A stretch of 64,000 nt of DNA from Halichondria panicea (taxonomy: Eukaryota > Porifera > Demospongiae > Suberitida > Halichondriidae). Location of the stretch: assembly GCF_963675165.1 (NCBI RefSeq), contig NC_087385.1:904001-968000 (forward strand). The letters run 5' to 3'. A program made the position numbers and the translations under genes. Position 1 is the stretch's first letter, and each line of letters starts with the position of its first letter. The notes under the pieces are model-generated. The model was not told where the DNA came from. It saw only the letters and a list, made by a program, of their open reading frames with translations, and did not search any database. Below are positions 16,778 to 57,000 of the stretch, piece after piece.

Positions 16778-17304
16778 ATTGAGACTTGAGCGTCTGTGCT
16801 TGATACACCAGGATCCAGCTGGTCACGTACAGGTAGCTAGCTTCTTATACAGTTCTTATACTATGTAGTTCCTTTATTGTCTTGTATTGTTACTTGACCT
16901 CCTGATCCTTTGCATTGTGAAAAAAACCCACATCCAAAATCAGCCGAGTTCCATCAAAAAGCAATAGTTCCATTAACGATCTTTACTGGAACGTTTAGTG
17001 GACAGATGTTGACTGACTCGGGGTTGGGCCGCGGATTAGAAACGCATTGAGACGACCTTTACCATTTCATGTCAGAATCAGAGGTACCCGGTACACGGCC
17101 CAGACTCCCAGTACAGTACAGTACCAGTGTAGCTTCCCAACTGAGTGAACAGGTAAGCGGTTTAATGCTATACACCATTGTCATTTGACTTAGCCTTAGG
17201 CTTAGGGCTTCAAGTTTTCGAATTTCAGTCAGTACAACATGAACATCGACATCCCATTGAAACGTACATATTCATGCACACATGCACCTCCCAACAGGAG
17301 TGCC
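16778..17304. promoter_or_regulatory. Head-to-head gap between PLA2G15-like and DGCR6
   Basis: A divergent gap of about 0.5 kb. A splice donor (CAG/GTAAGCGG) at 17150-17151 and an acceptor (CAACAG) ending at 17296 suggest that DGCR6 has a 5' UTR intron. No core promoter element was recognised. Confidence 0.45.
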
Positions 17305-17913
17305 ATGTCATCAGAAGCTCTCCCACAAGGCTATGACTTTGGCCCACCTCTAGGCACCACATCAGAAGAGACGAGATACTTGTACGGTGTGTTTTACAAG
17401 AAACTCTGTCAGTATCGTACACAACTACCACCGCCCTTGCAACAGAAAATGACAGACACACACATTAAGGGACTAGCTGACGCTCTGCTTGACGGAACAG
17501 TGTTCGAAATTGTCAAAGAATTGGAAGATATTCAACAATTTAATGAGAGTACCCTGCTCAATAATCGAGTTACAGTCGTTAGCGCACACAAGACACAAAA
17601 AATGGCACTGGCAAAGAAATACAAGGAAGAACTGGCCAGTGTCAAGCAGCACAACCTTCCCTTGGCCAAGAAAAGGCACGAAAAGGAAGAAGCTGAATTA
17701 CACTTAAAACTGAAAGAGGAGCTGAAATCGATGGATCAGAAGATTATTCTGGAATTGGACCAGCTAGTGACTGATCAACAGTCCACCATGCAGCAAGCAG
17801 ATATCCCCATGTTCAGTGTGACTAATAACCCAACAGAGATACAGTTGCAGATGCACATACTGAAATTCATTCAAAGACTTTCTGAACTCCCCCCAACCAC
17901 CACAAGCCACTAA
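17305..17913 (+). CDS. DGCR6: DGCR6-family protein
   Basis: An intronless coding region of 202 residues from MSSEALPQ. The frame is also open from an ATG at 17239, but a likely intron (17151 to about 17296) would remove that start, so 17305 is preferred. The blocks ADALLDGTVFEIVKELEDIQ, SLL.NRV-like, MDQKIILELDQLV.DQQST and TNPTEIQLQMHILKFI follow human DGCR6 (LALALLDGTVFEIVQGL; MDQKIVLELD; TTNPQELMLQMNLLELI) in order. The centre is a charged coiled coil. DGCR6 is a conserved nuclear/cytoplasmic protein of the human 22q11 deletion region, related to Drosophila gonadal; its biochemical role is poorly defined. It converges with the next gene, 219 bp away. Confidence 0.92.
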   Translation: MSSEALPQGYDFGPPLGTTSEETRYLYGVFYKKLCQYRTQLPPPLQQKMTDTHIKGLADALLDGTVFEIVKELEDIQQFNESTLLNNRVTVVSAHKTQKMALAKKYKEELASVKQHNLPLAKKRHEKEEAELHLKLKEELKSMDQKIILELDQLVTDQQSTMQQADIPMFSVTNNPTEIQLQMHILKFIQRLSELPPTTTSH

Positions 17914-18051
17914 TTTGTGTATACTTTGCGAGACTTTCCCAGTAAATCTCTTTGGTTGTTGTTTTCATCTGTTTATTCAACATTTTCAATATTAATATAG
18001 TTTCTCATAATAATAATAATTTAACCAGCCTCAAAGGCTTCACACACAAAC

Positions 18052-18132: not shown

Positions 18133-21100
18133 TCAAGAGATCACACAGCCTCTGAATTTAGACTGTTTGCATTGTTTGCTCGAGTCCATTTGAGACTTGG
18201 GTAAGCATTTGTGGCTTTGAAATAGTTGATACCAGGCCTCAAGGTCCTGTAGGGGAACAAGGGGAATCATGGTCAATGAGGTTGAACTTGTAAAATGAAT
18301 ATAATTATTGTAATTAAGTGCTGGAATTTCACTACATAATTCTACACACACTTGCTAATTGAATACAAAGTACAAAATTATAACACTTTCTAATGATTTC
18401 ACTGTTACATAGCATCTCGGTAACTTAATTGAAAGTTATATAATAGAGGCAGCCACTACATACACACGCCCAGGCCAGTAGTAGCCAACTGAAGGCATGC
18501 AATAAGGAAGAGAGGAGGAAACGCATCGGCTTTGAAACATGATCAGGTTTCAGGTCGGGTAAACAACTCTATACGCTGGTAATTGGTAATTCCCAGCAAA
18601 GAGTTGTTAGACAACTAGAGGAAAGAAACTGATGCCCTAAACAATAGCCCTTGCTACAACCCCATCAGTGTTGCACAGACTAGCTATAGATACATGCAAG
18701 GGTCTTTTTTTATCGTAATTGATGCACTATCAGGAAATGCACTACATTAGTGGGTATGTCAACAAGGATGAAGTACTGACAATCCAGTCAATGGACGTAC
18801 CTCAGTAGTGCAGCATGATAGTTTGTAGCTTCTGAAGTTCTTGAGAATTGGATTGACCGGATGAACGTGAATGGTGGTAGACAAGTTGTCCTCTTGTGTG
18901 AAATTTACTTCGTAGTCTGTTTGTAGATTTAATTGGACGGGTCTATTTAGCTCGGGGTGGGTGTGGTCAGCTGACATTAATCGCTGTGAATATAATGTGT
19001 GTATAGTGTGTATAGTGTAGTGTACTGGTAAACATCACATACACATAATATAATCATATTCATAGTTCCAGGAATCAGTGGTTAAACTATCCATTCTGGG
19101 AAACTTCCACCACCCCACTGTATATAATTTCAATGTTATGCATAGACAGTGTATTAGTCACAGCATACCAAACCTTTCCCTCCAGTGTCAACAAACACAA
19201 CTATATAGACAACACACTAGCAAATGGCTCACCACTTCATTTAGATACATCAGTTCTTCTTTTCTGAGTAGCTGAACACACTCTCTCTTGAAGAACTTTT
19301 GTTTGTCTCCTCTGTGATCTCCTATACACCAGTCGGCTGTTTTTTGTTGAATGTTTGTGATGAATGATCCTCGAGCGAATTCAAGTTCACTCTGACCCCT
19401 ATCTCCGTGCGAGTCTTTCAGTGCTATGCCATAGCTTGTGTAGACAGGCTACAGAGGGAGGAATATATAAAAGTGTTTCGGCACGTTTGGTAGACTAGGT
19501 TTGCATGATCTAATGAGAGTTTCTAGCAACAATCACACAATCAGATCTTCATCTACCTAGTCAATTGTTGCCTATAGCAATCCCTGGCTGGAACACTTTT
19601 AATGCTGCTACATTCCACTAATGTTACCAAGCCAACAGTTGGCATTGTCCTGCACAGACTAAGAATAGCAGCCAAACCTCTACACAAACCACTGCAACAC
19701 ACCCAAGTCTGGGGCTCTAGGAAACAGCTGCTGAGGGCTATCAAAACGCCTAGACAAAGCTAACCACGAGGCGACAAGAATTCTATTATTCCATACTAGT
19801 ATGTGTGAAATCATTGTATTGTACTTACATCTCTATCTGGGACGGGGTGCTTGAGTACAGTGTTGCCATTGATCGGGTTCTCCATGAAATAGTGAATGAC
19901 TTTGTACAGGACTTGAGAGGTGATGTTGTTCAGAGTAAAGCCTGGGTTAGGTCTCTGTGTGGCCACGATCAAGTTATGATGGATACTACCCTCAGACCTA
20001 GAGAAGTAGACACAGAGAGATGCATTAGATAGATACTCGATCTGCACACAGTAGCAACTTTCAAGCATATTACAGACATGAATTCGTTAACACTGTGTGG
20101 GTGTGTATTGTGAAAACAGTGTCAGCATTTCTAAGAAGCCTTCTACTAGCGATGCATGAATAATGTATTGCTTTCAGTATGCACGCACCTATACGCCACA
20201 ATATAGGGTGCATGTTCAGATTGTGTTCGGTAGACAAAGAAGGCCCCGTCTCTGTGTTCTTTCCGTAGTATCTGTTCCGCTTGAGACAACGATTTGACTC
20301 CTCTGTGTAACCACGACATATTAGGCTGCAAGAGAATGAAACATAATTATAATTATAGCTCATGAATCTACTCACGTATGTCACAATAGCTATCATTACG
20401 CTTGTGAAATTAATGCTCTGTGTGAATGTCCAAACTAGAACGATGGAGTAAGGTCAATTAGCTCTGACTCTATAATTAATTGCTCTATAATTAATTGCAT
20501 GCCAGAGTTCTGTTTGAAGAATTAACAGTAAGTATAGCTAAATAGATAGAATCTGACATGCAGACCCAGTCACCTAGGTGTAGGCAATAGTACACAGCTC
20601 CACATTCACAGCATACAAGGATATAAGATGACCCCACCCACTTACCTGTGGTGGGTATTGGCCGAGTTTGATATCAAATGTATGATTTTGAATGAGTGCT
20701 TTCTTTTGTGCTTCGTCTATAAGTTCACTGAGTGAGCTAAAGAATGGTCCATTGGGTGTGATGTTGTAGATCACCCCCGTCACTGGGTCACGTTTGCTCT
20801 CAATCACGACATGTTTCACACGACACTCGTGCCTGTGAGTAAGTGGCAAGGTGGATACTTATTATAATCTTATTTTAGCATATATCATACAACAGCTAAC
20901 AAGTATAGGAAGCAAACAGAATCACATTATGGGAGGCACTAGCCTCCAAAGGGAATCCACTACTATCATTCTTCCAGGAATAGTACTTATAGGAAGCAGG
21001 AAATTTGAACATGACCTCATATACACATTCCACTAGCTAGGAGATCTGCTCACTCTAGCAGACAGACATTTATAAACAGATGACACTCACATGAAAGAAA

Positions 21101-22146
21101 TGGCAAACTTTCCACTGTAACTCTCGCTTGTTCTCACAATAAAGGAGCCTTGACCACCTTTAAAATCTTGCAAGATGACACGAGCTTCTCTCCTAGTTAG
21201 ACTGCCATGGTACCATCTATTGGTTGAGGTGGTGGGAACGTGTTAAATAACTTGTTATCTATGAATGGACATGTGTCTATAGCAATTTAACATGAAAGAG
21301 AGAGTGTTTTCTCTAGTAAACATCGTAACGTGGTCTTTGGACGCAAATGTTATGCATTTTGGCAGACAACAAGCAAAGTTTGGATTGAATGCCCCCTAAT
21401 TGCCAAACAAGGCTGTACAGTCACTAAACACATACATGTACATACCTCTGTGTTAGATGCTCCAACTGCTTTGGGTTCACCTAAGTAGGAAACGAAGAGG
21501 AAATTTGTAACTTGCAGGAGGAAAGATGAATAATGCAGATTCATTGCATGCTTGACTGACTGACTACCCTTTCACTAACAAGCTAGTTATACTGCAGTTT
21601 CTTACCTCTAGTTTAAGGTCTTCATACTCTGTTATATTGAGACAAGGTGCATTGAAGGATACTAAACTTTCGTGCCATTTCTGCAGGGAAAAAACACAGC
21701 AAGCAATGATTTACACAATCATGACAGATCGAGTTACCTAATAGGAGTGCGTGTATTCATCAACTCCTCTCGATATTAATCAATAAAGTATCAACAACTT
21801 AAGCTATTAGTGGGAAATGAAATACGATATCTGTTTGCATACAGATACAAGGAAAGCCTTTGTTGGTGGCTATTACACTGCTGTGTCACTGCAACATCAG
21901 ATACTATTGAGTATTTTGTATTTGCACTATCTTGTTGCTAATGAACATTTTTGGCAAAGCAAATTTGTTCTCTATTCAACTCAGCCATTAATTACTTGAC
22001 TGTTTGTATTCACGCACCTCGTATTTAGGACTCCACACGAACATAGCTTGCTCCTTTTGTACAGAGTCGGAGCCATCTTCAGATTTATTTGATTCTCTGT
22101 CAGATTCTATTACCGTCTCCATTATACTGTGTTCGTACTGCAACAT
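18133..22146 (-). CDS. Stand-alone PLC-gamma-like regulatory array: SH2-SH2-SH3-half-PH, no catalytic core
   Basis: Ten coding exons: 22146-22018, 21680-21606, 21480-21446, 21216-21091, 20832-20646, 20325-20189, 19997-19829, 19448-19233, 18983-18801 and 18246-18133. They sum exactly to 456 residues. The N-SH2 starts at about residue 81 (WYHGSLTRREA, GSFIVRTSES). The C-SH2 starts at about 189 (LSQAEQILRKEHRDGAFFVY), close to the PLC-gamma C-SH2 (AEHML..VPRDGAFLVR). An SH3-like domain follows at about 290-350 (SELEFARGSFITNI, GDHRGDKQKFF versus PLC-gamma DELTFTKSAIIQNV, GDYGGKKQLWF), then a C-terminal half-PH-like segment ending DLEAWYQLF. The protein stops there: no X or Y TIM-barrel halves, C2 or EF hands. 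The SH3 has lost ALYDY-type and WW residues. Upstream exons (about 22570-22462 and near 22640) look noncoding because the frame has a stop before this ATG. A phosphotyrosine adaptor role is inferred. Confidence 0.85.
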
Positions 22147-22690
22147 CTGAGCAAAGAGAGTACACACATATCAATTTCAATTGTTATAGCTCTTGTAATC
22201 TATTATATCTCTCCATGCACTATTTATAAATAACCTGCATGACTCGACTATAAAGTGGATATGTTATGTACTAGATTGAGTTTTCAGCTCATACAGATAT
22301 AGATCTAGCTAATGCATTAATAGGCCACCAGCTATAGAAAGGTTAAGGTATTGGAGTTGCACTCAACCAGAGTCTGCAAACTAAGCTAGAGAATCCACAT
22401 GCATGCATACTGCACTAGTACTTGAACCAGCTAACACTGAATGAGCGGTACAGGACTATTACCTTGGTGGCTTGGGCTTGAAACTGATGTTCTCAGTATA
22501 AATTGACTCTTCAAGAACGACACTAGCAAGAGCTGGAAATTTCTTCTGTAGTGCTCCTGCTGCTTTATACTAGAGCAACTGTGTTATCATTATCCCGTTC
22601 CAGGAACCACTTGCTGGGGAAATACCTCACCGCAGTCTAAATTGACTTTCTAATGATATTCATGATGTTGACATCACACAATGCAACAAG
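22147..22690. promoter_or_regulatory. Noncoding 5' exons of the SH2 gene and shared promoter with the esterase
   Basis: On the minus strand a donor CTGCG/GTGAGG near 22634, an acceptor CTCTAG before 22570 and a donor CCAAG/GTAATAG at 22462 outline two 5' UTR exons. The frame continuous with the ATG at 22146 meets a TGA within the second of them. The oppositely oriented esterase ATG at 22691 lies within about 100 bp of the first exon, so the two genes probably share one promoter. Confidence 0.5.
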
Positions 22691-25600
22691 ATGGCGAATT
22701 TACTCTTCATGTTGTATAGTGCCACATCTGTGCTGTTTCTGCCCCTTGCGAGCTCATATCAGAGCCCTTGCGACTCCCTGACACCAGAATACTGTGCTCT
22801 GCCCTTCCCAAGCTCCTACTATACTGCTCCTGACCCAAGCACAGCTACCGGACTAAAGGTCAACTTTTCATCTGCAACCTTTCCACTGGATATAATAGGG
22901 AGAGGAGTGAATCCTGCAGAGTGGAACACACTAGGTAGGCACAGTACAACACACACACACACACACACACACAGTACATTTGTGTATGTAATTACAGTAT
23001 ATCAGATAACATGATAATTTTTGCTATCACAGTATCTTACCATAACACATGTGCGTGGGTGTTGGGTTGCTATGGGAAGCCTTACAGCTCAGAGGTGTCT
23101 TTTGTATAGCCTCATGTACACTTTAATGCAGATGGTTTCTCCCCATTTCCTTCTATTCTGACCTACTTCCCCCACCTGTCTGATTTCAACCTACCACCAC
23201 ACTGGGACATACAGCAATCACTAGCTGAGGACAGCCCTACAATACTCATTGAGGCTGACACAGGTAAGGCCCAGATAGTCTGCTTACTACAGTGAAACCT
23301 GGTCCACCCCTGCAATAAATAGGTGGCCTGCTAACACAGATCCAAACACATGCTATGAAAACTTTGGGGAGTGCATTAACCTGACTGTATTATAATGAGG
23401 GTGACCATTAGTGGCCATAAACAATAGACAGCTTTCACTGTTCTACTATGAGCATTTTCAGTATTTGCTTTATCATTGTAGGGGAAAGAATTGCTCATTT
23501 TGCTGAGCTAGACACAGCTGCAAATGTAAGTCTGTAAACAACACACCTATTATATATATTTATTCTATGCAAACCCCCCCCCTCCCGCTTCAGCTGGCTG
23601 AAAGAGCTCTAATGATTTGGCCGAGCAAAAGGCTTAAAAGTGGTACCCGGTATATCGTAGCTTTGAGATATTTGGAGGATGAGTCTGAACGCCCTATACA
23701 GCCTTCTCCTGGTTTTATTGCCCTGAGGTATGCGTGGTGTGTAGTCATGGGGATTATCTACATATGCCAAATGTTATCATACTCCATACATTCTTTTCAT
23801 GGCTAGCCGGCTAAATTTGCTAAATTGTTTATTTGTTCGTGATTCAAGGACATGAAACTTGAGCCAAATTTGTCCCCAATTCTAGCAAAATGTAAAACGA
23901 TAGTCCTAAGAGCGTTATCTACCTGGAACCCTGCGTATTGTACATGTATGCTAATTGTTATGTAATTGTATGCTCCCTCTTTACCGGGTAACTGAGTACA
24001 GTTTTGCTCCAGTTGATTCAATCATCACAGGCGTCCATGTCTGAACAGTATTACCTGGAAGCAATGTAATATGGTAATATTAGCTAATACTGCGGCGGTG
24101 GTCTTATGGACTCTGTGTCAATGATTGTATTTGTCCACAGAGACAAAACAACCAGCAAAGACCCAGATATTGAAAGCAGAAGACAATTATTTGAGGAAAT
24201 CTTTTCCACCTTATCTTCTATAGGTACGTATATATATTGATTTCATTTTTCGTCCTTCCCTAATTAAATGGATAGACAACAATTTAACTTTGTTGGACCA
24301 ACACTGTTGAGGAGTATGATTACCTCCTGTGTGTACTACTGCCTCTTTCCAGGAATTACCAGGAACTCCCTCCAGTTGGCATGGGACTTCAACACAGCCA
24401 GTATAAAGTGCCTCACTCAAAGGTGTGACATATCTTTCATGCATTAATCTACAAGGTGGCTATGTATGTACTTACAGAGGATTTCAAGTTGGTTGGCAGA
24501 AGTTAAAAGTTGAAGTGCACTCAATCATGACCACACACTGTTTGTTTCTTCCTACTAGTGGTCATGACTGCACTTCAACTTTTAACTTCTGCCAACCAAC
24601 CTGAACTCCTCTGTAGCAGTTGGTCTAAAGTGCCCCACTCAAGGTATAAATAGTGCATAATCTACTGGCAGCTGACATAATTATTACCCGCTAGTGTAAA
24701 GGATCTCAACCAAAGGTGTGGTATTAATCAACAAGGTAGTAACAGCTAGTCAAAAGGTGTAAAGTAATGCATGCAATAATCTACTGGGTAGTAACAGCTA
24801 GTCAAAAGGGTCTCAATCAAAAGTGTGGAGTCTGCTATCCAAACTTGTTCCCCTAAAGGCTTCTCAGCCAATTTTTTCCTGTCTACCAAAATTAGTTTAC
24901 ATAATCATGTGTGGAATTGTGTGTGGTGTGGGTAATTGGTTGAAGTTGAAACATACGTTGTAATCTCGTAGCTTTCAATTCATTATTGTCTTAATGGCTG
25001 CTCACACTCTGTATTAATGGCTGCTCACACTGTTAGACTGCTGTTTATGAGAGATGATGGACTAGCAAGAACGAGTGCCAAGGGTTCAGAGTACATTCTC
25101 ACCAAGGTCGAGGACAATTTAAACGAAAATATATTCAGGTGAGGGAATTCGCGGTTAACATTGTGAAAATGAAAAATGCATTATGTTTTTAATGTACCAT
25201 CCCCACCCACTTGATCTTATCTTACAAAAACAAATGGTAGCCAAAAGATACACAGTGTTTTAGAAGCTATACTTGCTTATAATAATGTCGGCTGAGCAAA
25301 CATCAAAAGAAAATATTTGGTAACTATTACGTTAAGTATTTAACGCCAGATTAAATGCTATGCACTAGTACGAGCGCCCATGCACTTCTCATAACTTTTC
25401 TTGGAAAGATTCCGATCACTATACCCAAGAAAAAATTCGAAAAACTAATTTCTGCGGAATTGACCACTTGAAACAACAGGGAAGTCCTACACAGCAATCT
25501 CAGAGTAGAATTCTATGCACCAGCAGTTATACAGATAATTCTGCACGTACTCATAACTCTTCTTGGAAACTTTACGATCACTATACCCAAGAACAAATTC

Positions 25601-40131: not shown

Positions 40132-40748
40132 CTTTACACAGAAGTATTGACAGAGCCTGTAGATTGCTGGTGTTTTCTTTGAGATGCTGTTGTGGTAGTC
40201 AATTGTGCTTGTCTAATGAATATCATTATTGAAGCTCTAATTAGCTGCAAAGAAATCTACCGAAATTTTAGAAACAAAAAGGGGGCGTGCCTGTAGATCA
40301 ATCCTCACACAGAACTGATAGTTAAGTTGCAGTTGCTGTATTACGACTGTAGCTAACAGTCTAGCTGAGTCGTTTGCAGCATCTTAGTAACACTGAGGTA
40401 CTCCACTGAGCAGCCAAATCTGTACCGCAGCAAACTCTGATCTGGTAAGCGAGCTCCGTTTATTCTTGCACACTAACTCAGTAAAATTAGTAACCACGTA
40501 CATGCACATGGCCCACACACGTACACCTTCAACTTGAAAACTACAGTGTGGTTCAACTTTTATATTGCCTCAGTACGTGAGTTTAAGTTTAATATCCATC
40601 CTGGTGGCCTCACTACGATTTTATGTTCATTGTTAGCATAGATCTAGTATTGTATATAAAATACGACTGTAGGTATTTATAATCATGGTTCTATTTGTAT
40701 GTTATACAGCCTCATCTGTCTTGACGAGAAGGAGGACGTGTTAAAGCC
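40132..40748. promoter_or_regulatory. Head-to-head gap between the four-TM gene and NNT
   Basis: A divergent gap of 617 bp. GTAAGCG at 40445 resembles a splice donor after a possible NNT 5' UTR exon. No repeat or RNA gene was recognised here. Confidence 0.4.
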
Positions 40749-43700
40749 ATGTTTGAATTCAGTTCTGCCCTGAGGCCGTGCCTGAAGTGGTCCGGAGGGC
40801 TCATCAGAACTCGTACACTCGCTCTCAGAGAATCGAACTTTGTGAGGTCTAGTTTTCGACGATTTTGCTCCTCCACAGAAGCAGCCCCTCCCCCTGGCAC
40901 ACCCTACAACAAACTCACTGTAGGCGTACCCAAAGAGACATTTCTCAACGAGAAGAGAGTTGCTCTTTCACCAGTTGCCTGCAAGCTCTTAACGAAGGAA
41001 GGATTCTCTGTTCTAATTGAAGGAGGCGCCGGTTCCGAAGCAAAGTTTTCAAATGCCGAGTACGAGGCTGCGGGAGCGAAAATCGGGACTGCTGAAGATG
41101 CATTTCGTTCGGATATCATCATGAAAGTTCGAGCCCCATCTCTCAAAGAAACCGATCACCTGAAGCAAGGCTCTTCACTTATTAGCTTCCTCTACCCTGC
41201 TCAGAATTCGGATCTCATTGATGAGCTAGCCAAGAAGAAGATCAACCTTTTCGCTGTCGACCAGATACCTCGAATCAGCAGAGCTCAAGTTTTTGATGCC
41301 CTCAGCTCTATGGCCAATATCGCTGGCTACAAGGGAGTAATTGAAGCAGCCAATCATTTTGGACGATTCTTCACTGGACAGATTACAGCTGCAGGGAAAG
41401 TCCCTCCTGCCAAGGTGCTTGTTATTGGAGGGGGCGTGGCTGGTCTGTCCGCCATTGGAACGGCCAAGAACATGGGTGCAATCGTTCGAGCGTTTGACAC
41501 GCGAGCAGCCGTGAAGGAGCAGGTGCAGTCACTAGGAGCGGAGTTTCTGGAGGTCAATATCAAGGAATCAGGAGACGGAGCCGGTGGCTATGCTAAAGTC
41601 ATGTCGAAAGAATTCATTGAAGCTGAAATGGCACTTTTTGCCAAGCAATGCAAGGAGATTGATATCCTCATTTCCACTGCACTGATTCCCGGGAAGCCAG
41701 CACCGAAACTGATCAAGCGTGAGATGATCGAATCGATGAAAGCCGGCTCAGTTGTGGTGGATCTGGCGGCCGAAGCAGGAGGCAATTTTGAGACGACTAA
41801 ACCTGGAGAGCTATACCAGTACAAGGGTGTGACTCACATCGGGTACACGGACCTGCCCAGTCGACTACCCACACAGTCCAGTACCCTGTACGCCAACAAC
41901 ATCTCGAAGTACCTCCTCTCTATGGGGCCCAAAGGTGAGTGGCACTTGATAATAACTTGGCATTCGTTATTTGTATATGTACATGCATTGCTCTAAAGTG
42001 TCCCAATTTGCCGTTTTCGTTTTGAATTTTCATGCGGAAAATGTTCCAAGTCCAGTGCCTGTTTAGTCCGTTTAACATGCATGTATGCCCGATGACCAAC
42101 TGTGATGGTTGGTGTAGCAATGCTGTTTTGAAAATCACTGTTACTATAATTATACTGTATCGCGGGTAATTTTCGGGGGATAAAATATTTGTGGTTGAGC
42201 AGTATTTAGTCATTTCATGGATAATATTTTCGTGGTTGCTGCTTGCACTGCAGGTAAAGGTAGGCAAGGTCGCTTCATTCGTGGGTAAAATATTCGTGGT
42301 CAGATCTTCAACCACGAAAACCACGAATATTTTGCCCCACGAAAATTACCCTGTATATGGTATTCCTTTTTCATTTCTTCCCATAGACAGTCATAATTAT
42401 GGGTGAATGCATGTAATGGAAGGGACAAATTGTGGTCTGTCCTTGTACAAATAGTCTATGGCATTCACAATCACATTCTGTGCTACTCTACATTGTATTG
42501 TATTTGTACACACATACACCGAAACAGATATTTTCTTAGACAAATATAATTTAATTCATACTATTCCCCTATAGGTCAGTTCCATATTGATCTTCAGGAC
42601 GAGGTTGTACGAGGATCCATTATCCTGAGGGACGGGGAAAAGATGTGGCCGCCACCGCCTCCTCCGAAACTGCCCGAGCCAGAGGTCAAAGACACACAGC
42701 CGATACCTGTCGTACAAGCCCAGGTCGTGGAAGACACACCGTTTAAGACGACCATGAAACAATCACTCGTGTACACTGCTGGACTTGGTTCGCTATTGGG
42801 ACTCGGAATTATTACACCTACTCCGGCTTTCAGTACCATGGTTACGACGTTCTCGCTCTCCGGAATCGTAGGGTACCACACAGTGTGGGGGGTTTCCCCT
42901 GCCCTCCACTCCCCTCTCATGTCCGTCACCAACGCTATCTCTGGGATCACTGCAGTTGGAGGGCTTCTCTGCATGGGGGGTGGCTATCTACCCACGACCA
43001 CAGCACAGGGACTGGCTGCAACAGCTGCTTTCATTTCGGCCATCAACATTTTCGGAGGCTTCCAAATCACCCAGCGAATGTTGGACATGTTCAAACGACC
43101 TGACGACCCTTCAGAGCACAACTACCTCTACGCTATACCTGGAGTTGGATTCCTCGGAGCTTATCTTGCGGCGCACATGGCGGGCCACTCGGATATCCTT
43201 CAGATGGCCTACCTTGCAGCTTCTCTGTGTTGTGTTGGTGCTCTCACCGGCCTTGCGTCTCAGGCCACAGCTCGACAAGGTAACGCCCTGGGAGTGATTG
43301 GGGTTACAACTGGCATTGTCACCACTCTGGCTAGCATGGGACTGTCAAACGAAGTGCTCATGCAGATGACGGGTGCTTTAGGTGGTGGAGGACTTATTGG
43401 AACTATTATCGCTCGGCGTATGGCTATCACTGATCTACCACAACTGGTTGCCGCTTTCCACAGCTTTGTTGGTTTGGCCGCTGTTCTTACCTGTCTTTCG
43501 ACGTACATGTCCGAGTATACCCACCTTGCGTCCGATCCTAGCGGTGCCGTCACTAAAGCTGCTCTTTACCTCGGTACCTATATCGGAGGGGTGACCTTTA
43601 CTGGCTCTCTGATTGCGTTTGGCAAACTCCAAGGTATGCTCAAATCCGACCCCCTTATTTTCCCCGGAAGACATCTGCTCAATGCTGCTCTACTGACTAC

Positions 43701-44844
43701 AAATGTCGGTGCTATGGGCTACTATATGACCAACCCCGGTTACTCGGCTGACATGAGCTGTCTGACCACTACCACACTTCTCTCATCTGTGATGGGAGTC
43801 ACTCTCACCTCTGCCATTGGAGGAGCCGATATGCCTGTTGTCATATCCGTCCTCAACTCTTACAGCGGTTGGGCTTTGTGTGCCGAGGGATTTATGCTTA
43901 ACAACAACCTACTGACGATTGTTGGTACAATGATCGGGTCGTCTGGTGCTATCCTCTCGTACATCATGTGCAAGGCCATGAATCGATCGCTCACAAATGT
44001 CATCTTTGGTGGAACGAACATCGGAACAAAGAGCAACACTGGAGGAAAGCCAAAGGAGATCACTGGAGTCCACACCGAGATCGATCTTGATGGAACCGTC
44101 GATCTGATTGATGAGGCTCAAAACATCATCATCACCCCAGGCTATGGTTTATGTGTGGCTCAAGCACAGTACCCGATTGCAGAGTTGGTTCGTATCCTTC
44201 GCGAGAAAGGCAAGACTGTTCGATTTGGAGTACACCCTGTAGCTGGACGTATGCCTGGACAGCTCAACGTGCTTCTGGCCGAGGCTGGTGTCCCGTACGA
44301 TGTCGTCTTGGAGATGGATGAAATAAACGATGACTTTAAGGACACAGACCTCACTCTGGTGATTGGAGCCAATGACACTGTCAACTCTGCGGCTGAGGAA
44401 GACCCTAACTCCGTCATTGCTGGCATGCCAGTACTTCAGGTGAGTGTGTGTGGGTGTGTGGGTGGGTGTGTGGGTGTGTGGGTGTACTTAATGGTAGGGC
44501 TACGTGTACGAGTGTACTTGTAACTTTGAAGAGCATTTTTGTGGTAGCAGTGCGTGAACTTGGTCGTTAGTGGGAAATTTTTGTGTAGGCTAATTAATCA
44601 TTGCCTGAATCTTTGTGGTTATTATACATGTGACTTTTTTTTTAATATTCATACGATATATCACCCCCCCCCCATGCAGGTGTGGCAAGGCAAGCACAGC
44701 GTTGTGATGAAGCGTACTCTGGGCGTGGGGTATGCTGCCGTGGACAACCCTGTCTTCTACAAGGACAACACCTCCATGCTGCTAGGAGACGCCAAGAAAA
44801 CTTGTGAAGCTCTCTTGGCCAAGATCAAGAACAAATACGAATAA
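40749..44844 (+). CDS. NNT: NAD(P) transhydrogenase, mitochondrial
   Basis: Three exons (40749-41934, 42575-44439, 44680-44844) sum to 1,071 residues (human 1,086). A basic, Ser/Arg-rich mitochondrial presequence (about residues 1-45) precedes [20 protein letters not shown]. The NAD(H) domain has [18 protein letters not shown] and [18 protein letters not shown]. The membrane part has many TM helices (about 430-800), and the NADP(H) domain ends with [40 protein letters not shown] and [16 protein letters not shown]. It transfers hydride from NADH to NADP+ across the inner mitochondrial membrane, driven by the proton gradient. The gene has only two introns, while most neighbours have many. The stop codon lies inside an AATAAA hexamer (44840-44845). 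Confidence 0.97.
42155..42360. mobile_element. Palindromic MITE copy D in NNT intron 1
   Basis: Left end CTGTATCGCGGGTAATTTTC, right end GAAAATTACCCTGTATATGG. The inner blocks TCGTGGTTGCTGCTTGCACTGCAGGTAA and ATTCGTGGGTAAAATATTCG are shared with copies C (3631) and E (62965). Confidence 0.85.
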
Positions 44845-45688: not shown

Positions 45689-46799
45689 GGGGGGTACATG
45701 TGTGTGTGTGGGGGGATATGTGTGTGTGTGTGTGTGGGGGAGGTACATGTGTGTGTGTGGGGGGGATATGTGTGTGTGTGTGTGTGTGTGTGGGGAGAGG
45801 TCATTGTGTATGTGAAATTGGCAAAGGCTTCCTGGAATTGGGCCCAAAAGCAATCTATATCATTGACATATTGACATACTGTAGTAGGGCAATCTATTAT
45901 GATGCATGAGAATAACGCAAGTTTAGCCCCTCAGATCACGACTATCACTCACCTGCTATTCGGTCCTCTTTCTTGCCCATGACCACACCCACTTGAGGGT
46001 TGAGCGTTGTGAAGGGGTACGCTGCCACAGTAGGCGTGGCTCTCGTGATTGCCCGAAGCAACGTCGACTTTCCAGCATTCGGAAACCCCACCAATCCAAC
46101 ATCAGCAATCGTTCTAAGCTCCACATCTAAAAGAGCTTCACCACCGTAACCACCCTCGGAGGATTGTGTAGGCCTTCGATTATCAACGTCTGCAAACATC
46201 ATATTCCCGAGTCCCCCTTCTCCCCCGGCCAGGACTTGGTACCGATCTCCTGGCATTAACAGATCGGCTAGGATGGTTCCACTGATTGTGTCCTTGACAA
46301 CAGTCCCTGTGGGTACTTGTACAGTCACGTCTCGGCCAGTTTTGCCATTGTGGCCGGAGCCTTGTCCATGAGTCCCATTATTGCCACGGTAGTGATTCTT
46401 GAGTAATTTAAGAGTTCTTACTGACGAGTGTGCTGTGAAAAACACGCTCCCACCACGCCCACCATTGCCTCCGTCGGCCGGACCGTATCTTATCTTCCCT
46501 GATCTGCAGATGGTATAGTGGTCTATATAGCACGATACAGGGAAACCAGTGCACACCTGTGAAAGCTGACGCATCCATCACCACCATTACCACCTTTGAC
46601 AACAACCCTCTTCCAGTCCACAAATTTTCGATCCTGCATGGACAAGATTGGTGCATGTGAAACCTTGCATCGTAAAGCTACTAGACTACAGCTTAACCTA
46701 AGAATGTACCTTGTACTTCCCTTTACTCCTTTGCTTGGCCACTCCAGCAGCTGCAGATAAAAGCCTTTTCAGAATAAGAGAAGATCTATTGCAGAACAT
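45235..46799 (-). CDS. MTG2: Mitochondrial ribosome-associated GTPase 2 (Obg family)
   Basis: Four exons: 46799-46710, 46633-46557, 46503-45953 and 45626-45235. They sum to 369 residues. A short basic presequence ([19 protein letters not shown]) precedes the Gly-rich Obg fold ([45 protein letters not shown]). The G domain has G1 [10 protein letters not shown]3 DIPG, G4 NKMD and a G5-like SGK. The order Obg domain then G domain, with no C-terminal OCT extension, fits animal MTG2/ObgH1. It helps mature the large mitoribosomal subunit on the inner mitochondrial membrane. The frame is clean across all junctions. It converges with NNT, another mitochondrial gene, 390 bp apart. Confidence 0.93.
45629..45793. 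repeat. (TG)n/G-run microsatellite at an MTG2 3' splice site
   Basis: On the MTG2 strand it is a CA/C-rich tract ending in the CACACAG acceptor of the exon that begins at 45626. Confidence 0.92.
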
Positions 46800-48090
46800 T
46801 TAGGCTGTGATTCTGTAGGGAAAAGGTCGTCTAAAGCAGTTGTCAACTGAGTTGAGTCGAGTCTGGAGTTGACCTCTCTGGGTGACTTGACCTCGAAACA
46901 AGATGTTGCTCTTGACTTGACTTTATTGAGGACGCAGAATATTATAGAGGCTGTTCCACATGGATCTGATGCGTGCCCCGCCCCTCTTTTGGACTTTGTA
47001 GGTGGATTTGCAAGCATAAATCACTCAAAACTTCAACTGTGTGAAATTAATTAGGACTTGCAAGTACCAGGAGATGCAAGAAACTAAAGGCCAAAGATCT
47101 GTACATGAAAGTGAGTGCTCAAGATAGCTAGCTGCACTACATTCTTGCTATTGAAGCCCCAGCAGTGCAACTGGGCATGTACTGTTACAAGCTAGTTTAA
47201 TATGCAAGGTTTATTGGCTACAAGCTGGCTACAAGCTAGTGGTTGCTTCCTAAAGCACCCTTTTATCTGGTGTGGCGAGACTGGTGCCAGATAGCCCAAC
47301 CACGAATTAATGTACAGACCAGTTTCAGTGCCAAAAAAAACTGGGACGGCCCGACAAACCTTGTACTATTACATTTGCTTTTAGTAATTCAAAGAGATTT
47401 GTAAAGAATAGCTATCTGTCATGCCGTTCTCTCAAGTATGATTTAGTGAATACAGCAATACTATATCTCAAGGTAGTGAGTTCATGTGCAACAGTGCAGT
47501 CTGATTGTTTGCGTTGGTCTGTCCCTAACCTTATCTGTATCATATTTTTATATAATTATAATGTGTCTTGGTCTTTCCCAATTTAGCTTTTTGTCTCTTA
47601 CTGCAGTTCAATTGTTTGTAGTACTGGTCCCTAACCTTATCTCAGTTCAATTGGTCTTTCCCAAATTAATCTAGTTATGTCTATTACTGCACTTCACTGG
47701 TAGTATAATTACATGTATACTGGTCTGTCTCTGTCCCCCTAGGATTATCACTATCAATTAGCCCCCTCAGTATCTCAAAGAATAGGTATTACATTTTATC
47801 AATTGTTTGTGTTGGTCTCTCCCCCATTATACTTATCTCAAGATTTTTGCCACTCCCCTATCAAAACGTTATAATTATGCTGAGAATTATGAATTATGAT
47901 TTCTTCTCATCAGATTTCCTTTCATTATGTTCAGTGAAGCGTGGGTCCCCATGGTATACTAAATGTCAACTTGTTGTTTATGGTTTGTGTACAGGCACAT
48001 TGTTATGGGGATGTACTTGTAATGGCATTTATTTTCAATACCCAGGGCAATACTATAAAATTGAAACATTTTCTTCTTTTTCCAATACAG
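46800..48090. other. Divergent intergenic region between MTG2 and the cadherin gene
   Basis: About 1.3 kb with no recognisable gene. 47480-47830 contains diverged repeats of a TGGTC(T)GTCCCTAACCTTATCT / CAATTGTTTG pattern. The frame upstream of the cadherin ATG is open back to 47847, but an acceptor (CCAATACAG) ends at 48090, so that stretch is probably intron and 5' UTR. Confidence 0.6.
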
Positions 48091-48092
48091 AA

Positions 48093-51000
48093 ATGGGTCC
48101 ACTTGGGTCATCGCAGCGTTCAACACTAACTATATTATTGTGCCTGCTAGTTCACACAGTGTGTTCAGTTAATGCAGAGCTGGCATTCTTAGGACAAGAA
48201 CCGAATCGAGCGATTGTCTCTCAAGGTTTGCAAACGGGAGAAGCTGTTTACCAATTATTTGTCGTGGACATGTTATCCAATGAAGAGACATTAGGAATAA
48301 CGTTCTCAAGCTCACTAACTAGTTCCTACCCATTCTTTCTCGTGCCCGGAAGCGGGCAAATTCTTGTTACTGGCGCTCTATCAGAGGAAGAGTACGTTTT
48401 TGTTGTCCAGGCAACATCGTCTGGCGGTATCACCATAGAGACTAATATAACAATCGTTGTTGTACCATTATCTGATTCGGACACTACACCAAGATTTGAA
48501 CACAGTCTATACGAAATTGAAATACCCGAAAATCTTCCGGTAATGAGTGCCTTCAATGCAATTCGAGCGTTTTCCTTAATTCTAACAGATACCATTCAAC
48601 GATACTCCATCGTCGCTGGCAACACGGACACCGACTTTGTCATCAATAATAACAATGGTCTACTTCGTGTCAATCGTAACTTGGACAGAGAACGAACAAA
48701 TTTCTATCAGCTAACTGTTCGATATGTTGACGACTACTCATCCGTGGATACAATAGTTCGAGTCTCAATAGGGGACATTAACGATGAGACGCCGCGATTC
48801 TCTAGATCCCTGTATAACGTCACTATAGCAGAAACACTACCTATTGGAAGTATAGCACTCACCGTCAACGCTACTGATGATGATATTGGAGCCAACGCCA
48901 TGGTGACGTATTCGTTTGATTTTACTGCAAGTTCGGCCTTTAGTTTGGACCCGATTGAAGGAGTGTTAAGAACAACTGAAGCGTTGGATTACGAGCGACA
49001 ACCGAAATATCAGTTTAGTATTACCGTGCAGGATGGAGGTAGCCCTCAGCTGACGTCCGTGACAACTGTTCTCGTCAATCTGATAAATATTGATGATGAA
49101 TGTCCGAGATTTGAGAATCCTATATTTATAGAGGAACTGGCATACGATGTCACTGACACGCCCCCTGGAGTTGGTACGGAAATTCTTACTGTTATGGCAA
49201 CTGATCCCGACAGATTTAGTAGCGTTACCTACTCGATAGTTAGCGGACACACTGATGTATTAGCATTGGATGTGGAGACAGGAGTGATAACACTGGCCAG
49301 TACTGACAATGACCCTAGGGGGCAGTATACACTGAACGTGTCAGCAAGCGATAACAGCTGCACAGATCAAAGCTTCGTTCGAGTTGATATTGGAATTGGA
49401 AATGTTAACGTTCATAGTCCTCAATTTCAGACTGACTGCACTGCTAATCTAATGGAGAATCCTCCACTTGGAACTGAAGTAATCACTCTGCTAGCTACTG
49501 ATGGAGATATTGGTTTTAATGGTTTAGTCACTTACTCGCTCTTATCAGGAACGAATCTCTTCGAAATCGATACTTCTGGAGTTGTGAGGACTATTGCCTC
49601 CCCCGAGACCTACGATAGAGAGTTACAATCCACTCTTCAGGCCGGAGTCACAGCAAGCGATGGCGGGGGGAGACAAGACTATTGTCTATTGACCGTTACC
49701 CTGGACGATGAGAACGATAACACACCTCGTATACCATTGTCTATGTATAGTACAAGTTTAGCCCGTGATTCTGGAATAGGAACATTTGTATTACAGATAT
49801 CGGCAGATGATCCTGATGTTGGTGATAATGGACGCATCGAGTATTCCATTGATTCCAGTTCATCTTCTCTGCCTTTTCAGATTAACAGCATGAATGGCGT
49901 CATTACAACATCTGTGACACTTCCGAGCACAACTAGACACGAATTCACTGTATTTGCTGCCGATATGGGTACTGCCGTACAGCTCACAAGTAGTACCATG
50001 GTTACTATCACACTTACTGATGGAGATGCTCTTCCAAGATTCACTGCACTCAACTATACAGGGACAACTTGTGAAAATCCTGCTATCGGCACTACTGTCT
50101 TGACTGTGAATGCTTCGAGTACCTTGCTAAACGGGTTTATCCAGTTTACAATTTTAGCGGGTTCAGATTATCGCTCAAACTCTAGACAAACATTTAATAT
50201 CCGACCAGTTTCTGGTGCCTCAGGTGTGGCCAATATTATCATAGGATCTCAAACGTTAATCGATTTCGAGCAATTATCTCCCCATCTCAGTTTTCAATTC
50301 TTCGTACGAGCGACCAACGCAGCTGGAAGTAGCATCGTACCTGTGGAGATCTTTGTCATTGATATTGATGATAACAGTCCTGAATTTCTCACCCCCAGTT
50401 TGTCAGTCACTATTGTCGAGAACGAAGTGATTGGAACTACGGTAGCACAGGTGCAAGCAATGGACCCTGACTCAGGGACAAATGGAGAAGTTTTGTACAG
50501 GTTTATGAGTGGAGAAATATCCCCTTACTTTGATATAGCTACTAATGGTCTAATCACGTCAAAAATAGTGTTTGATTTTGAATCTGCTATGGACACTCGA
50601 GGAAATTTACTTATAGAAGCATACAATCCTAACCCAGTTGATAATGGTTCAATGTGCGGATCTTTTACTCGGTTTTCAGCAACTATTTTTATTGAGTGGA
50701 ATATTCTAGATCAAAATGACAACCCACCGTCGTTTGAAGAAAGTTTGCTCACAGTGCAAATACAAGAGGACGCTCAAATTCAGAGCAAAATTTTAAGACT
50801 AAATGCAACGGATATGGATATCAGTGACTTTGGTGTATTAAGTTTTTCAATCAATTCTGGAAATGATGGGACTTTTGGAATTGAATCAGATTACATCGTT
50901 TTAACTAGACGTCTGGATTTTGAAACCACTGCAGAATATGAACTTGTAATTCACGTGACTGATGGTATTCATAGCATTCAAGATTGCCCACAATCCCAGT

Positions 51001-54000
51001 GTGTTGCCATAGTGCGTATCTTAGTAACAGATATCGATGATGAGCCGCCTGTGTTCTCTTCCCTCGAATATCGTGCAAGTGTCGTTGAAAATGCACCCAC
51101 TGGTACGTCAATCCTCGAGATCTTAGCCACTGATATCGACTCCCCTTCTATAGAATACAAATTAACTGGTTTAGCTGAGGGCCGTTTCACCGTCAGCCAA
51201 ACAGGTGTCGTTTCAGTGGCCGGACCAATTGACAGAGAACAATTCCCTGGGGGCAGTCTGGTGTTTTTGGCATTCGCAGATGGTGGGAGTCTGGCAACAG
51301 CTGATATTGTGATTGATATTCAAGATGTGAATGATTATGAGCCTCGGTTTTCTGGAGTGTTTAGTGGTCTGGTTGAGGAGAACTCTGATCCGGGGGAGGA
51401 GGGCCTAGTGGTGAGTCAAGTGAGGGCTGTGGATCTAGATCAGGGAGAAAACGGAACGGTGCACTATTCTATAATATTTGGTGGAGAAAATGGATTCAGA
51501 ATCGACAAAGAGACGGGTGTTATTACTGCACATGCTCAGTACGATCGAGAGGCCACTCCAAGTTTTGTACTAGTTGTTCAAGCCACAGATAACGGTACTT
51601 CAATACAACTATCGTCACAGACACAAGTTGTTATAGAGATCGGTGATGTCAATGACAACAGACCACGGTTTCCATTCTCATACATGTTTGCACGAGTGTT
51701 TGAGAATTCCCCGATTGGACATTCCGTTTTCTTCCTACCTACAATAGACGCTGATAGTGCACTGAACTCTCGAGCTATTTTTTCACTACTTGCCACAAAT
51801 CCAATGGAAACGAAATTTTCTCTCAATTTAATAACTGGAGAAGTAACAATTGCAGGCAGTTTAGACTATGAGATCCCGCTACATAGACTCTACACATTGA
51901 CTGTGTCTGTAGTGGACCCTGACTCGCCATCTGAGTCTGATGTTGGAACCCTTCAAATTGTGCTACTCGATCGAAATGATAACCCTCCTCAAATTAGTGT
52001 TACCAAATCTGAGACTGGTCTACTTCAAGAGACATTCCCGATAGGAATTCAGGTTGCTATGGTTACGGCTTCAGACCTAGACATCGGACAAAACTCTGAA
52101 TTGATGTTTGAGATTTCTGATGGAAATACGAACGGTGATTTTGAACTTTTAGTGGAGGATGGAGGGGCGATTATCAAATCAGCGAATCAGTTTGACTACG
52201 AAACCACCCTCTCCTACATGCTGACAGTAACAGTATCGGACATGGGATCACCACCACTCTCTGTTTCAGAAACAATTGATTTCAATATTATTGATGTAAA
52301 TGATGAACCTCCGATTTTCACTCAAAGTGAATACAGTATATCAATTTTAGAAAATTCAGCTCCTTCCGTCAACTTAATTCAAGTTCAAGCAAGCGATCGT
52401 GACACTGGAAATGGTGGAGAAATTGACAGATACGAACTTATCAGTGGGAATGAGGGGGGGTGGTTTGCTCTCAACTCAAGCGGTGTTCTGTCAAGTCTGA
52501 CCGTATTTGACAGGGAAGAACGAGCGGAATATGTGCTGACTGTAGCAGCATACGATAGAGGTGTTGTACCCATACAAGGGACTGCGAGGATCGTTGTTAC
52601 CATTACTGACGTTAATGACAACCCTTCGTTTGATGGAGGTCATCTCACAGTGCTTATCAACGCTCTAAATGGGATGGTTACCCCCGGCAATATCGCTCCG
52701 TTCCACTTCAATGACCCGGACAGTGATGACTCATTTTCAGGATGTACAGTCATCAGGCAAGATCAGACTGGTGTTTTTACAGTGGATAGCAGTTGTGTAA
52801 TACATCTTCTTGTGAATAACCCAGTCGAGGGTGACTACAACTACATTGAAGTGAGGGGGCGGGATGGAACACATACTGATGTCACAGTATCAGCTATAAT
52901 ACGAGTACAACATTTTAATTTTGCCAGACTAATTGCTGAAAACCTCATCACACTAACTCTGAACGCTTCAGTGGAAGCTTACATAGTCGATCGGCTAAAT
53001 ATTTCATTTCCCATGGAACTTGCTCGAGCGTTACAAGTGGCAGAGAGCAACATTCAGATCATAACAGTACAGCAAGGTACAATCCAGCCAGAGAGCACAG
53101 TCGATGTGACCTTTGTTGCTAGGGACAGCAATGGTGCGTATATTACCCCTGCAGCTATGCTTCACCAGCTGTTCGTACAAAGAGACAATTTAGTACTCAA
53201 TGGGCATGGAATTTTGAGTCTACCATTGGATGCATGTGCCGCTGAGCCATGTCAGAATCAAGCAGGATGTCGAACGATTCAAAATGTAGTGAGGACAGAT
53301 CGAGTGATAAATACACAAGAGTTTGTTTATTTTGCCCCAAGGATAGACTTCAGTTACGAGTGTGTCTGTGCACCTGGGACTACCGGTCAAAACTGTGAGA
53401 CTAATGTCAATGATTGCTATAGCAACCCGTGTCAGCAAGGTGGTGTGTGTACAGATACTGTGGGTGGATTCTCCTGTGTCTGTCCGAGTGGCTACACTGG
53501 TGATGACTGCAGCATTGCTCCCGACACTTGCTCAACTAATGCCTGCCAAAATGGTGGAACTTGCTCCATCATTACTGATGACATTTCTTGCAACTGCAAC
53601 CCAGGCTACTATGGCCCTCTCTGTCAGTATAATTACTTTATCCCCTCAAGCTTTTGCAGTCAAGACAACCCTTGTTCAAACGGAGGTGAATGCAGCGCTG
53701 GTAGGGACGGATACTCGTGTGTATGCTCACCTGGTTTCTCTGGAGAGGTGTGTGAGATAGAGACTCAGATACAAGGCGGTTGTGTTGGAAACCCGTGCTA
53801 CAATGGCTCCACCTGTGAAGAAACGTTACTAGGACCTAACTGCATATGCTCTGTTGGCTTCACCGGGCCCAATTGTCGATGGCCACTCAATAGCTGTGAA
53901 CTCGAGCCTTGCCTTAATGGAGGTACTTGTACGACTGGTCTCTATGATACTCATGTATGCAGCTGTGCCCCAGGGTACAGTGGTGATGACTGCAGTCTGA

Positions 54001-57000
54001 TCATTGCACCGTGCTTCAACGAGCCTTGCCTGAACAGTGGTAGGTGTATGGACATGGACGATGGTAGTTACATGTGTGAGTGCATGTCTGGATATTATGG
54101 AGACGATTGCGAGATTTCTGTTCAACCGCTGGATTTTTGTGCAATGGTGGATTGTTTGGATAATGGTAACTGTACCTCAGGGAGAGATACTTTCACATGC
54201 AGCTGTGATGATAGATATATTGGAGTTGACTGTGCAATTTCTACTCTCTCAGATGACGTGTCATGTGCTGGAAATCCTTGTCAACATGGCAGTGTGTGCA
54301 TGAATGATGCTTCTTCAGCGGATGGCTTACGTTGTTTCTGCTCACCTGGTTTCACTGGCTCAAGATGTGAGACCAACATCAACGATTGTCTCAACAGCCC
54401 TTGTATGAATGAAGGCACTTGTACTGACGGTATCAATGGCTACACCTGTACTTGTCCATCTGGTTTGGCAGGTTACGACTGTGAAGTGCGATGCCCTGAG
54501 GGCCTGAGTGGCACAATCTGCCAGGTACCTATTCTACAGTGCCTAGACAACCCTTGCCAAAATAACGGTACTTGCATTCAGACTGGAACTAAGTTCAACT
54601 GCAATTGTCCAGTCACACACACAGGCAGTCGGTGTGAGAGTGAGTTACTATGCACTGAGTCCACTTGCCTGAATGGAGGTCGTTGCATTGCTACACAAAC
54701 TGGAGGTATCATGTGCGAGTGTGGGGTCGGATTTTCTGGAGAAAATTGTGAATTGTTGACTGTCAGTTTCTCTGGCTCACAAACTCAGAGTAGCTATCGA
54801 GCATTTGCTTCTCTGGAGATTCGAGGACACGGAAGAATTGAGTTTGAATTTGCCACTGTAGACAGAAACGGACTCTTATTGTACAACACACAGCTGCAAA
54901 ATGGACGGACGGAGGATTTTGTTGCTGTGGAGATTGTGGGAGGTGCTCTGCAGGTATCTGTTTCCCATGGCAGTGGAGACTCTAGTGTACGCTTTGTTAG
55001 CAGTCCACGAGGTGTTGCCGACGGTGACTGGCATCAGGTGGTCATAGAAACAAACCAAAAGGTGAGTACCTAAGCTCTATAACTTAAAAGATTGTTATCA
55101 ATAATTATGCTGATTTTACGGTTGTATAGCATTCCATTCTTACTGCTGCTATAAAAAAATTCACACAATGTCGTTAACTATAATTATACGTATATAATTC
55201 AATTAATTATTTGCAGGTGTTCCGTGTCTTGTTGGACGATTGCCTTCTCCTCCCCAACTCACTCCAACCCTTTGCCCCTTGTACCGCAACCAGCACCACT
55301 CCAGGTACGAGCGGCTTCCTCGATCTGGGACTTCCCCTATGGTTGGGGGGAATCCCTTTCTCACCCCCCGTCAACTCAATACAAGTCTCAAGTCAGGGGG
55401 TCACTGGATGCATTCGAGGGGTTAGAATTGATGGGAAACTATTGGACCTTGAGGGGTATGTGTTTGAGAGCAACTCAGCGAGGGGGTGCTCTCATATGGA
55501 GTCTGACGTCTGTGCTGCTGGGAGTCCGTCAGTTTGTGGGGGTGGGCAGTGCCTGTCTGTGTTCGATGGCTACTCATGTGAGTGTCTGCCTCGGGAGGAG
55601 GGGGACGTTTGTGAGAGAGGTGAGTTCAATATAATTATTGGTACTATACACCTACTCCTATGCTACAAGTGTTTTAACAACTGTTACAGTACAACTTGTG
55701 AGGTAGGAGTTTTACCAATATTTTGCAGATCTTGTAATATAATTACCTGTGCACTTTTATAACAGCTTTAGCAGCAGGGATTTTGCAAGATATTTTGTAT
55801 GAGCATATAATTGTTGTTTCAGTTGTATGTGATTGCGATTAATTTTATAATGACTATTTCGTTTTACTCTCACACAGCTGCTGTGAGTGTGGTGTATGGA
55901 GGAGGCTCTTTTGCAGAATACTCTCTACTCGAATATCAACCGCCACCTGTTACTAAGAGACAAGTGTCAGCTGGGAGCTTACGATCAACCGTGTCTGATG
56001 AGATCAGCTTGTGGTTCCGGACTGAGAGGGGTAGTGGTCTGGCCCTGCTCTTGTTCATGGGGAGTGAGGACACAGGAGAGGAACTATATCTCCAGGTATT
56101 CTAACACATACATGGCCGCAGTCGTACATAGGAACCACAAGGGCTTTGGGACCCCTATAGATTATAGTAGTTTTCAACATAGGCTCTGCTTCCCTCCTTT
56201 TGTCAAAACGTATTCCTACATCATGCACTGCTGATGCACACTTGCATGCATTATGAGCTTAGAAAAACTATACTGTTATCATGTACAGTGTCATTGCAGT
56301 GTAATGAAGTTCTGCCAATGGAATGTACTTGCAATGAATAATTACCTACAGGTTGTACTATAGCTGGCTTAGTATGTCTTTATTCCCCCACCCAGCTTGA
56401 AGATGGTGTTCTTATCCTTCACATCAATCTCGGCTCTGTGGATGAACAATTCCTCCTGATGGACGAGCCACTTGCCGACTCAGCATGGCACTTTGTCGAG
56501 GTCAAAAGGTCAGCGTTGGACCTAATAACCAGTGTTGATAACATCACGTCACAGCACACATTAAAAGGAACGCAACTCTCTCTAGACGTAGCCCCAATCA
56601 TATACGCTGGAGGACGACCAGATTCAGGGGGTACCAATATTGTGACCCCCTATCTAGGATGCATGGAAGATATTCGCATTGATCGAAATCCCCTGCCTAC
56701 TGTCAGCTCTAATAATTTCGCGAGTGTGGTATTCACTGGGAATGGCATATCGTATAACTGTGCCCTGGGGCTTTGTCTGCCGAATCCGTGTGGCCGTGGA
56801 AACTGCAGTGAGATAACTCTGACGACTGGGAGGAATAGTTTTGAGTGCGAGTGTGAGAGTGGACACAGACTGACTGGTAGCAGCTGCCCAGGAGAACCCA
56901 CCCCCTCAATGTTCACACTCATTATTGTGTTTGTGACTGTAGCTGGAGGATTGCTGCTCTGTGTCACCATAGTATTGATGGGTGAGTTGTTTTCATGCAT

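Follow-up and report, generated by a model that had tools for sequence, protein, structure and literature searches.

A 64,000-nucleotide stretch of the genome of the sponge Halichondria panicea (contig NC_087385.1, positions 904,001 to 968,000; hereafter the window) carries on its minus strand, at 22146-18133, a gene whose product resembles the regulatory array of phospholipase C-gamma (PLC-gamma) set apart from the enzyme. On the whole contig, called C9 below, the gene lies at C9:922133-926146. Ten coding exons with AG/GT inner borders and agreeing phases join into one intact frame of 456 residues and a stop codon, as an earlier reading of the sequence alone (the original prediction) had it. 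The start of this frame is closed with or without splicing to a predicted 5' exon. Unspliced, the frame 5' of the ATG at 22146 is closed at 22173-22171; a donor at 22463 would splice the predicted exon onto the first base of coding exon 1, and the resulting transcript has an in-frame TGA eleven codons 5' of that ATG. The features of the gene, in window positions, are as follows.

22463..22570, minus strand: predicted 5' untranslated exon (prediction only); 3' end set by the donor AAG/GTAATA at 22463, 5' end arbitrary
22018..22146, minus strand: coding exon 1, from the start ATG through an acidic N-terminus to the opening strands of the probable N-terminal half of a split PH domain; a similar exon occurs in a second copy on contig C7
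21606..21680, minus strand: coding exon 2, completing the probable N-half PH; the introns on either side (phase 0, columns 55 and 90) also occur in the sponge's own PLC-gamma
21446..21480, minus strand: coding exon 3, linker to the N-terminal SH2 domain (N-SH2), from the gene model
21091..21216, minus strand: coding exon 4, opening half of N-SH2, FLVR arginine intact (FIVR), from SH2 profile matches and alignment
20646..20832, minus strand: coding exon 5, second half of N-SH2, from the gene model
20189..20325, minus strand: coding exon 6, first half of the C-terminal SH2 domain (C-SH2) with the FLVR arginine changed to tyrosine (FFVY), from alignment
19829..19997, minus strand: coding exon 7, second half of C-SH2, from the gene model
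19233..19448, minus strand: coding exon 8, degenerate SH3-like domain preceded by the shortened linker, from alignment and a Pfam score below cut-off
18801..18983, minus strand: coding exon 9, C-terminal half of the split PH, from Trp-anchored permutation
18133..18246, minus strand: coding exon 10, carrying the last PH helix (DLEAWYQLF) and the tail up to the stop codon, from the gene model and permutation
17972..17977, minus strand: AATAAA, candidate polyadenylation signal, from sequence

The product runs N-SH2, C-SH2, degenerate SH3, C-terminal half-PH, which is the order of PLC-gamma and includes the gamma-specific succession N-SH2, C-SH2, SH3. Relatives were sought among PDB sequences and in the sponge's own genome. 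With phmmer, residues 38-345 aligned with residues 488-808 of PLC-gamma1 (E 4.3e-26), and the best 10 of 184 matched PDB sequences were PLC-gamma1 or -2, followed by SHP2 at 4.8e-14; both ranking and order agree with the PLC-gamma-like sequence that had been noticed at the outset. Pfam (E up to 1) found two SH2 stretches in the protein (whole-protein E 9.6e-22) and no PH, C2 or EF hand match, C2 and EF hands having been sought in the protein and not in the surrounding DNA. The SH3 domain scored 17.7 bits against a cut-off of 22.9 and is placed by alignment only. The hidden Markov model check suggested for the product thus recovered the SH2 pair, left SH3 below threshold and did not detect PH, and the claimed lack of C2 and EF hands holds for the protein. 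The claimed lack of the X and Y catalytic halves at the locus also held: none of the 13 X and 6 Y matches in the genome (131 Mb, 39 contigs) falls in the window, in a profile search read exon by exon, in which short exons could be missed. Read-through from the array gene into catalytic exons was rejected, there being no X or Y match in the window. On sequence grounds, the product is a PLC-gamma-derived array and not a PLC-gamma enzyme.

A separate PLC-gamma and a second stand-alone array

The original prediction had left to a genome search whether a separate PLC-gamma exists. One was found on the same contig and strand, with X (C9:1010275-1009684), SH2 domains (C9:1008139-1006294), Y (C9:1004150-1003920, ~78 kb from the window gene) and a full array. 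This array was assembled with one intron having a GC donor and matched a PLC-gamma1 chain with an E of 1.4e-131; the remaining domains were recognised by eye only, in translated pieces.

Besides itself, the window protein matched a set of segments at C7:5759695-5766941. Eleven exons assembled there by hand (5758464-5771089) encode 443 residues in an intact frame with consistent phases, exons 1-3 and the last having been placed by weak similarity to the window exons together with splice sites and phase. The C7 protein is 35% identical to the window protein, its ten best PDB matches are all PLC-gamma (best E 8.8e-16), and none of the 13 X and 6 Y matches of the exon-by-exon search lies on contig C7. 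By domain, the two copies are 49% (N-SH2), 42% (C-SH2), 28% (SH3), and 20 and 25% (PH halves) identical; the corresponding values for PLC-gamma1 against -2 are 64, 55, 60, 27 and 31%. N-SH2 is thus the best conserved domain between the copies, and SH3 is unusually divergent, mostly owing to the C7 protein. The copies differ at 215 first, 152 second and 263 third positions of 421 codons, with a nonsynonymous divergence (dN) of 0.65 and a saturated synonymous divergence (dS) of 3.5 by the NG86 method; the third-position excess is as expected under purifying selection. Because a second array, intact as modelled by hand, exists on C7, with the same Arg-to-Tyr change in C-SH2 and without an X or Y match on that contig, the stand-alone arrays look like an old two-gene family derived by partial duplication of PLC-gamma rather than a fragment, and the protein class that the original prediction had thought possible gains support as more than a one-off. 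Within the N-SH2 intron of the C7 gene, its longest, lies an integrase core (PF24764, E 8.3e-85; C7:5761372-5762112), and a reverse-transcriptase-like frame was seen by eye upstream of the gene.

An SH2 pair at C9:5257209-5259157 was considered as a further relative and rejected, since the translated pieces read by eye as SH2, ankyrin-like, SH2 and kinase. This minus-strand SH2-ankyrin-SH2-kinase gene, at C9:5255001-5262500, is presumably Shark/HTK16-like.

Four of the nine window introns (columns 55, 90, 152 and 275) recur by column and phase in the sponge PLC-gamma, whose model was built independently of the window gene, and the C7 gene shares all nine and has one extra, in SH3. Since a break near profile position 41-46 is found in many SH2 matches of this genome, the SH2-internal introns (columns 152 and 275) are weak evidence, and by this comparison the weight of the intron evidence is carried by the two introns of the N-half PH (columns 55 and 90). 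One immediately precedes the first Trp and the other follows that exon; the window gene, the C7 gene and the sponge PLC-gamma all have both of them, in phase 0 and at matching columns.

Window residues 32-68 align with the N-half of the split PH domain of PLC-gamma. The intron-anchored gapless score of this alignment was reached by 4 of 20000 permutations, or by 156 of 20000 when the Trp column was held; for C7 alone with Trp held, the count was 1322 of 20000. Sliding the sequences by up to 10 residues gave at best -84, against 40 in register. For the C-half, with the last-helix Trp as anchor, the score was reached by 7 of 20000 permutations (180 of 20000 with Trp held), and hhalign gave 18.5 against 15.5 for the best shuffle. 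The C-terminal half-PH that had been proposed is thus read as present, and the N-half, which had been overlooked, is probably present as well, with less certainty than the C-half. Because the two introns of residues 32-68 match those of the sponge PLC-gamma in column and phase, the window protein is probably the whole gamma-specific array, with both PH halves.

In a tree of SH2 domains (38 rows, being 40 minus two fragments), the C-SH2 domains of both copies grouped with three PLC-gamma C-SH2 domains at 91/86, so that the suggested tree comparison came out in favour of a PLC-gamma origin. A tree of five arrays placed the stand-alone pair in one clade (100/100), and its joining to the sponge PLC-gamma was supported only at 66/51. 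Judged from these comparisons, the pair is old or fast-evolving and not a recent copy.

Phosphotyrosine pockets, linker and SH3

In both stand-alone copies the FLVR position is arginine in N-SH2 and tyrosine in C-SH2. The same position is arginine in all six SH2 domains of the sponge PLC-gamma, PLC-gamma1 and PLC-gamma2, and in 28 of 30 other SH2 stretches taken from the 71 matches in the genome. A second pocket position, which we take to be the one called alphaA2, is likewise arginine in N-SH2 of both copies, and is leucine and histidine in their C-SH2 domains where PLC-gamma has arginine. From these residues, only N-SH2 is predicted to be still able to bind phosphotyrosine in the usual way. 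The proposal that the protein is a decoy for phosphotyrosine receptors consequently remains tenable for N-SH2 and no longer for C-SH2, whose loss of the FLVR arginine had escaped notice.

For PLC-gamma1, excerpts of PMC7000336 and PMC7004563 describe binding to FGFR1 as centred on N-SH2; the C-SH2 pocket faces the C2 domain and on activation takes the linker phosphotyrosine pTyr783. Once R586 or R694 is mutated, the isolated N- or C-SH2, respectively, no longer binds peptide, and the array on its own binds the phosphorylated tail of a membrane protein (excerpts of PMC8244865).

The linker between C-SH2 and SH3 is 10 residues long in both stand-alone copies and 36 in the sponge PLC-gamma (36-39 across PLC-gammas), so that the long linker is absent, as claimed. 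Five positions are presumed to form the SH3 ligand site, namely the two Tyr of ALYDY, the first Trp of WW, and the Pro and Tyr of PSNY. The window protein keeps one of the five, the first Trp, and the C7 protein none, one being a gap; on this presumed set, the loss of ligand-site aromatics first noticed in the window SH3 is borne out.

Proposed function and alternatives

The array of PLC-gamma has two tasks, docking the enzyme and keeping it switched off. The C-SH2 phosphotyrosine pocket, the long linker with the activating tyrosine and the SH3 ligand site are parts of that switch, and in the stand-alone copies they would have been dismantled together, since no catalytic core is left to be released. 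N-SH2, the receptor-docking domain in PLC-gamma1, keeps its arginines and would dock at phosphotyrosine sites; a protein so docked would occupy or bridge such sites without producing second messengers, acting as a competitor of PLC-gamma or as an adaptor. Docking without catalysis is favoured because most of the switch logic is lost with the enzyme and the docking part is kept. We put the probability at about one half that the gene pair is a partial PLC-gamma duplicate, an array without the enzyme, that forms a two-gene family and docks through N-SH2 as a competitor or adaptor. More tentatively, and with odds somewhat below even, the copies may represent an unrecorded class of animal signalling proteins, complete stand-alone PLC-gamma arrays with a reunited PH and a docking N-SH2, in which the switch was dismantled once, in the common ancestor of the copies, and which would brake or re-route signalling from receptors to PLC-gamma.

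Several results weigh against docking by a complete, switch-less PLC-gamma array. The PH halves are undetected by Pfam, and with hhalign the N-half scores 11.4, less than the 16.7 reached by the top one of 40 shuffles. The first three exons and the last exon of the C7 gene were sought by the window pattern, so that the introns shared by the two copies are not fully independent and the comparison is partly circular. The tree gave no well-supported grouping of N-SH2 with its PLC-gamma counterparts, the domain sitting in a poorly supported part; a clade of the N-SH2 pair with PLC-gamma N-SH2 was not rejected (approximately unbiased test, p-AU 0.458). The activating tyrosine, claimed to be absent with the long linker, may be kept, as the window linker has a PVY that can be aligned in three rows with a PVY in the linker of the sponge PLC-gamma; C7 has PVA. 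The window SH3 appears damaged at its ligand site rather than diverged overall, because it is 37% identical to the SH3 of the sponge PLC-gamma, above N-SH2 (30%) and C-SH2 (25%). Finally, the dominant-negative fragment of PLC-gamma is C-SH2 (excerpts of PMC8244865), the domain whose pocket is lost in the window protein.

The kept N-SH2 also fits a scaffold in place of a competitor, in which N-SH2 anchors the protein on receptors while PH and the altered C-SH2 bind new, phosphotyrosine-independent partners. C-SH2 is still 42% identical between the copies despite the loss of the pocket in both, and, as TYK2 shows, an SH2 domain lacking the arginine can bind ligands of other kinds (excerpts of PMC7530234); the low conservation of SH3 (28%) and the PH halves (20 and 25%) between the copies argues against it, and we regard a scaffold as unlikely, though worth keeping in mind. 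Improbable, in our judgement, is a trans-inhibitor, that is, a free array sitting on the catalytic core of PLC-gamma, with split PH on the barrel and C-SH2 on C2, and making the autoinhibitory contact in trans. The autoinhibitory interface of PLC-gamma1 involves split PH and C-SH2 (excerpts of PMC7000336), both of which are present or probable in the window protein, and with the C-SH2 pocket lost, a lock of this kind would no longer respond to the activating phosphotyrosine; these are, however, regions in which the window protein is poorly conserved against PLC-gamma, at 14-17% identity for the PH halves and 25-30% for C-SH2.

The damaged SH3 ligand site in both copies and the integrase-type element in the longest intron of the C7 gene are what a relaxed, functionless duplicate in decay might show, yet both frames are intact at 35% identity, and together with their common exon plan and the third-position excess this makes decay quite improbable. 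An origin outside PLC-gamma, with SH2-SH2-SH3 put together independently from other SH2 proteins, would accommodate the lack of a supported place for N-SH2 in the tree; it is very unlikely given the PLC-gamma order, the C-SH2 grouping at 91/86, the PDB ranking and the four shared intron columns, which include both borders of the N-half PH exon. Scarcely credible is a piece of a longer catalytic transcript, formed by trans-splicing or through a missed distant exon: the gene does share contig and strand with PLC-gamma, ~78 kb from its Y match, but it has its own stop codon and an in-frame stop 5' of the ATG on the predicted 5' exon, and the other PLC-gamma possesses a full array of its own.

Set beside PLC-gamma1 and -2, then, the docking array preferred here has the same order of N-half PH (probable), N-SH2, C-SH2, SH3 and C-half PH, with similarity over residues 38-345, and it shares four intron columns with the PLC-gamma of its own genome. 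It differs from PLC-gamma in having no X or Y match at the locus and no C2 or EF hand match in the protein, in the Arg-to-Tyr change of the C-SH2 FLVR motif, in a linker of 10 rather than 36-39 residues, and in the loss of four of five SH3 ligand-site positions. PRIP/PLC-L is, like the window protein, a catalytically inactive derivative of PLC, but it retains the X-Y barrel and is not known to carry an SH2 array. PLC-gamma has been cut down to its array, to the SH2 tandem or to C-SH2 for use as a binding reagent or dominant negative, and such pieces are likewise arrays without the enzyme; unlike the window protein, they are engineered in the laboratory and have an intact C-SH2 pocket, with C-SH2 as the dominant-negative part (excerpts of PMC8244865). 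RIN2, TYK2 and SH2D5 have SH2 domains with a non-arginine at betaB5, as does the window C-SH2, although there the replacement is His or Trp (excerpts of PMC7530234) and here it is Tyr, in tandem with an intact N-SH2. Among the open-licence literature matches listed, no natural stand-alone PLC-gamma array appeared in titles and abstract openings.

A natural array-only protein shows which parts evolution retains once the enzyme is gone: the docking N-SH2 is kept, while the pocket of C-SH2, the long linker and most of the ligand site of SH3 are given up. If docking is what the copies do, docking and autoinhibition would here have been separated in nature, which offers a way to ask whether the array acts in trans on real PLC-gamma in the same cell.

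Other genes in the window

Two neighbours border the array gene. A DGCR6-like gene with an intronless frame (17233-17910, plus strand; Pfam PF07324, E 1.5e-44) converges on its 3' end. On the other side, the plus-strand frame at 22691-22933, which has a signal-peptide-like start by eye and no Pfam match at E 0.001, is a possible first exon of a divergent gene, and the two genes may have a promoter region in common. Farther along, a frame at 40746-41960 (plus strand) with both AlaDh/PNT domains resembles the beginning of a nicotinamide nucleotide transhydrogenase, to which we take a second plus-strand frame at 42550-44523 to be linked. A piece of a GTP1/OBG GTPase lies at 45945-46577 on the minus strand, and an open frame of 2407 residues at 47850-55073 (plus strand), with cadherin, EGF and laminin G domains, is Fat/CELSR-like.

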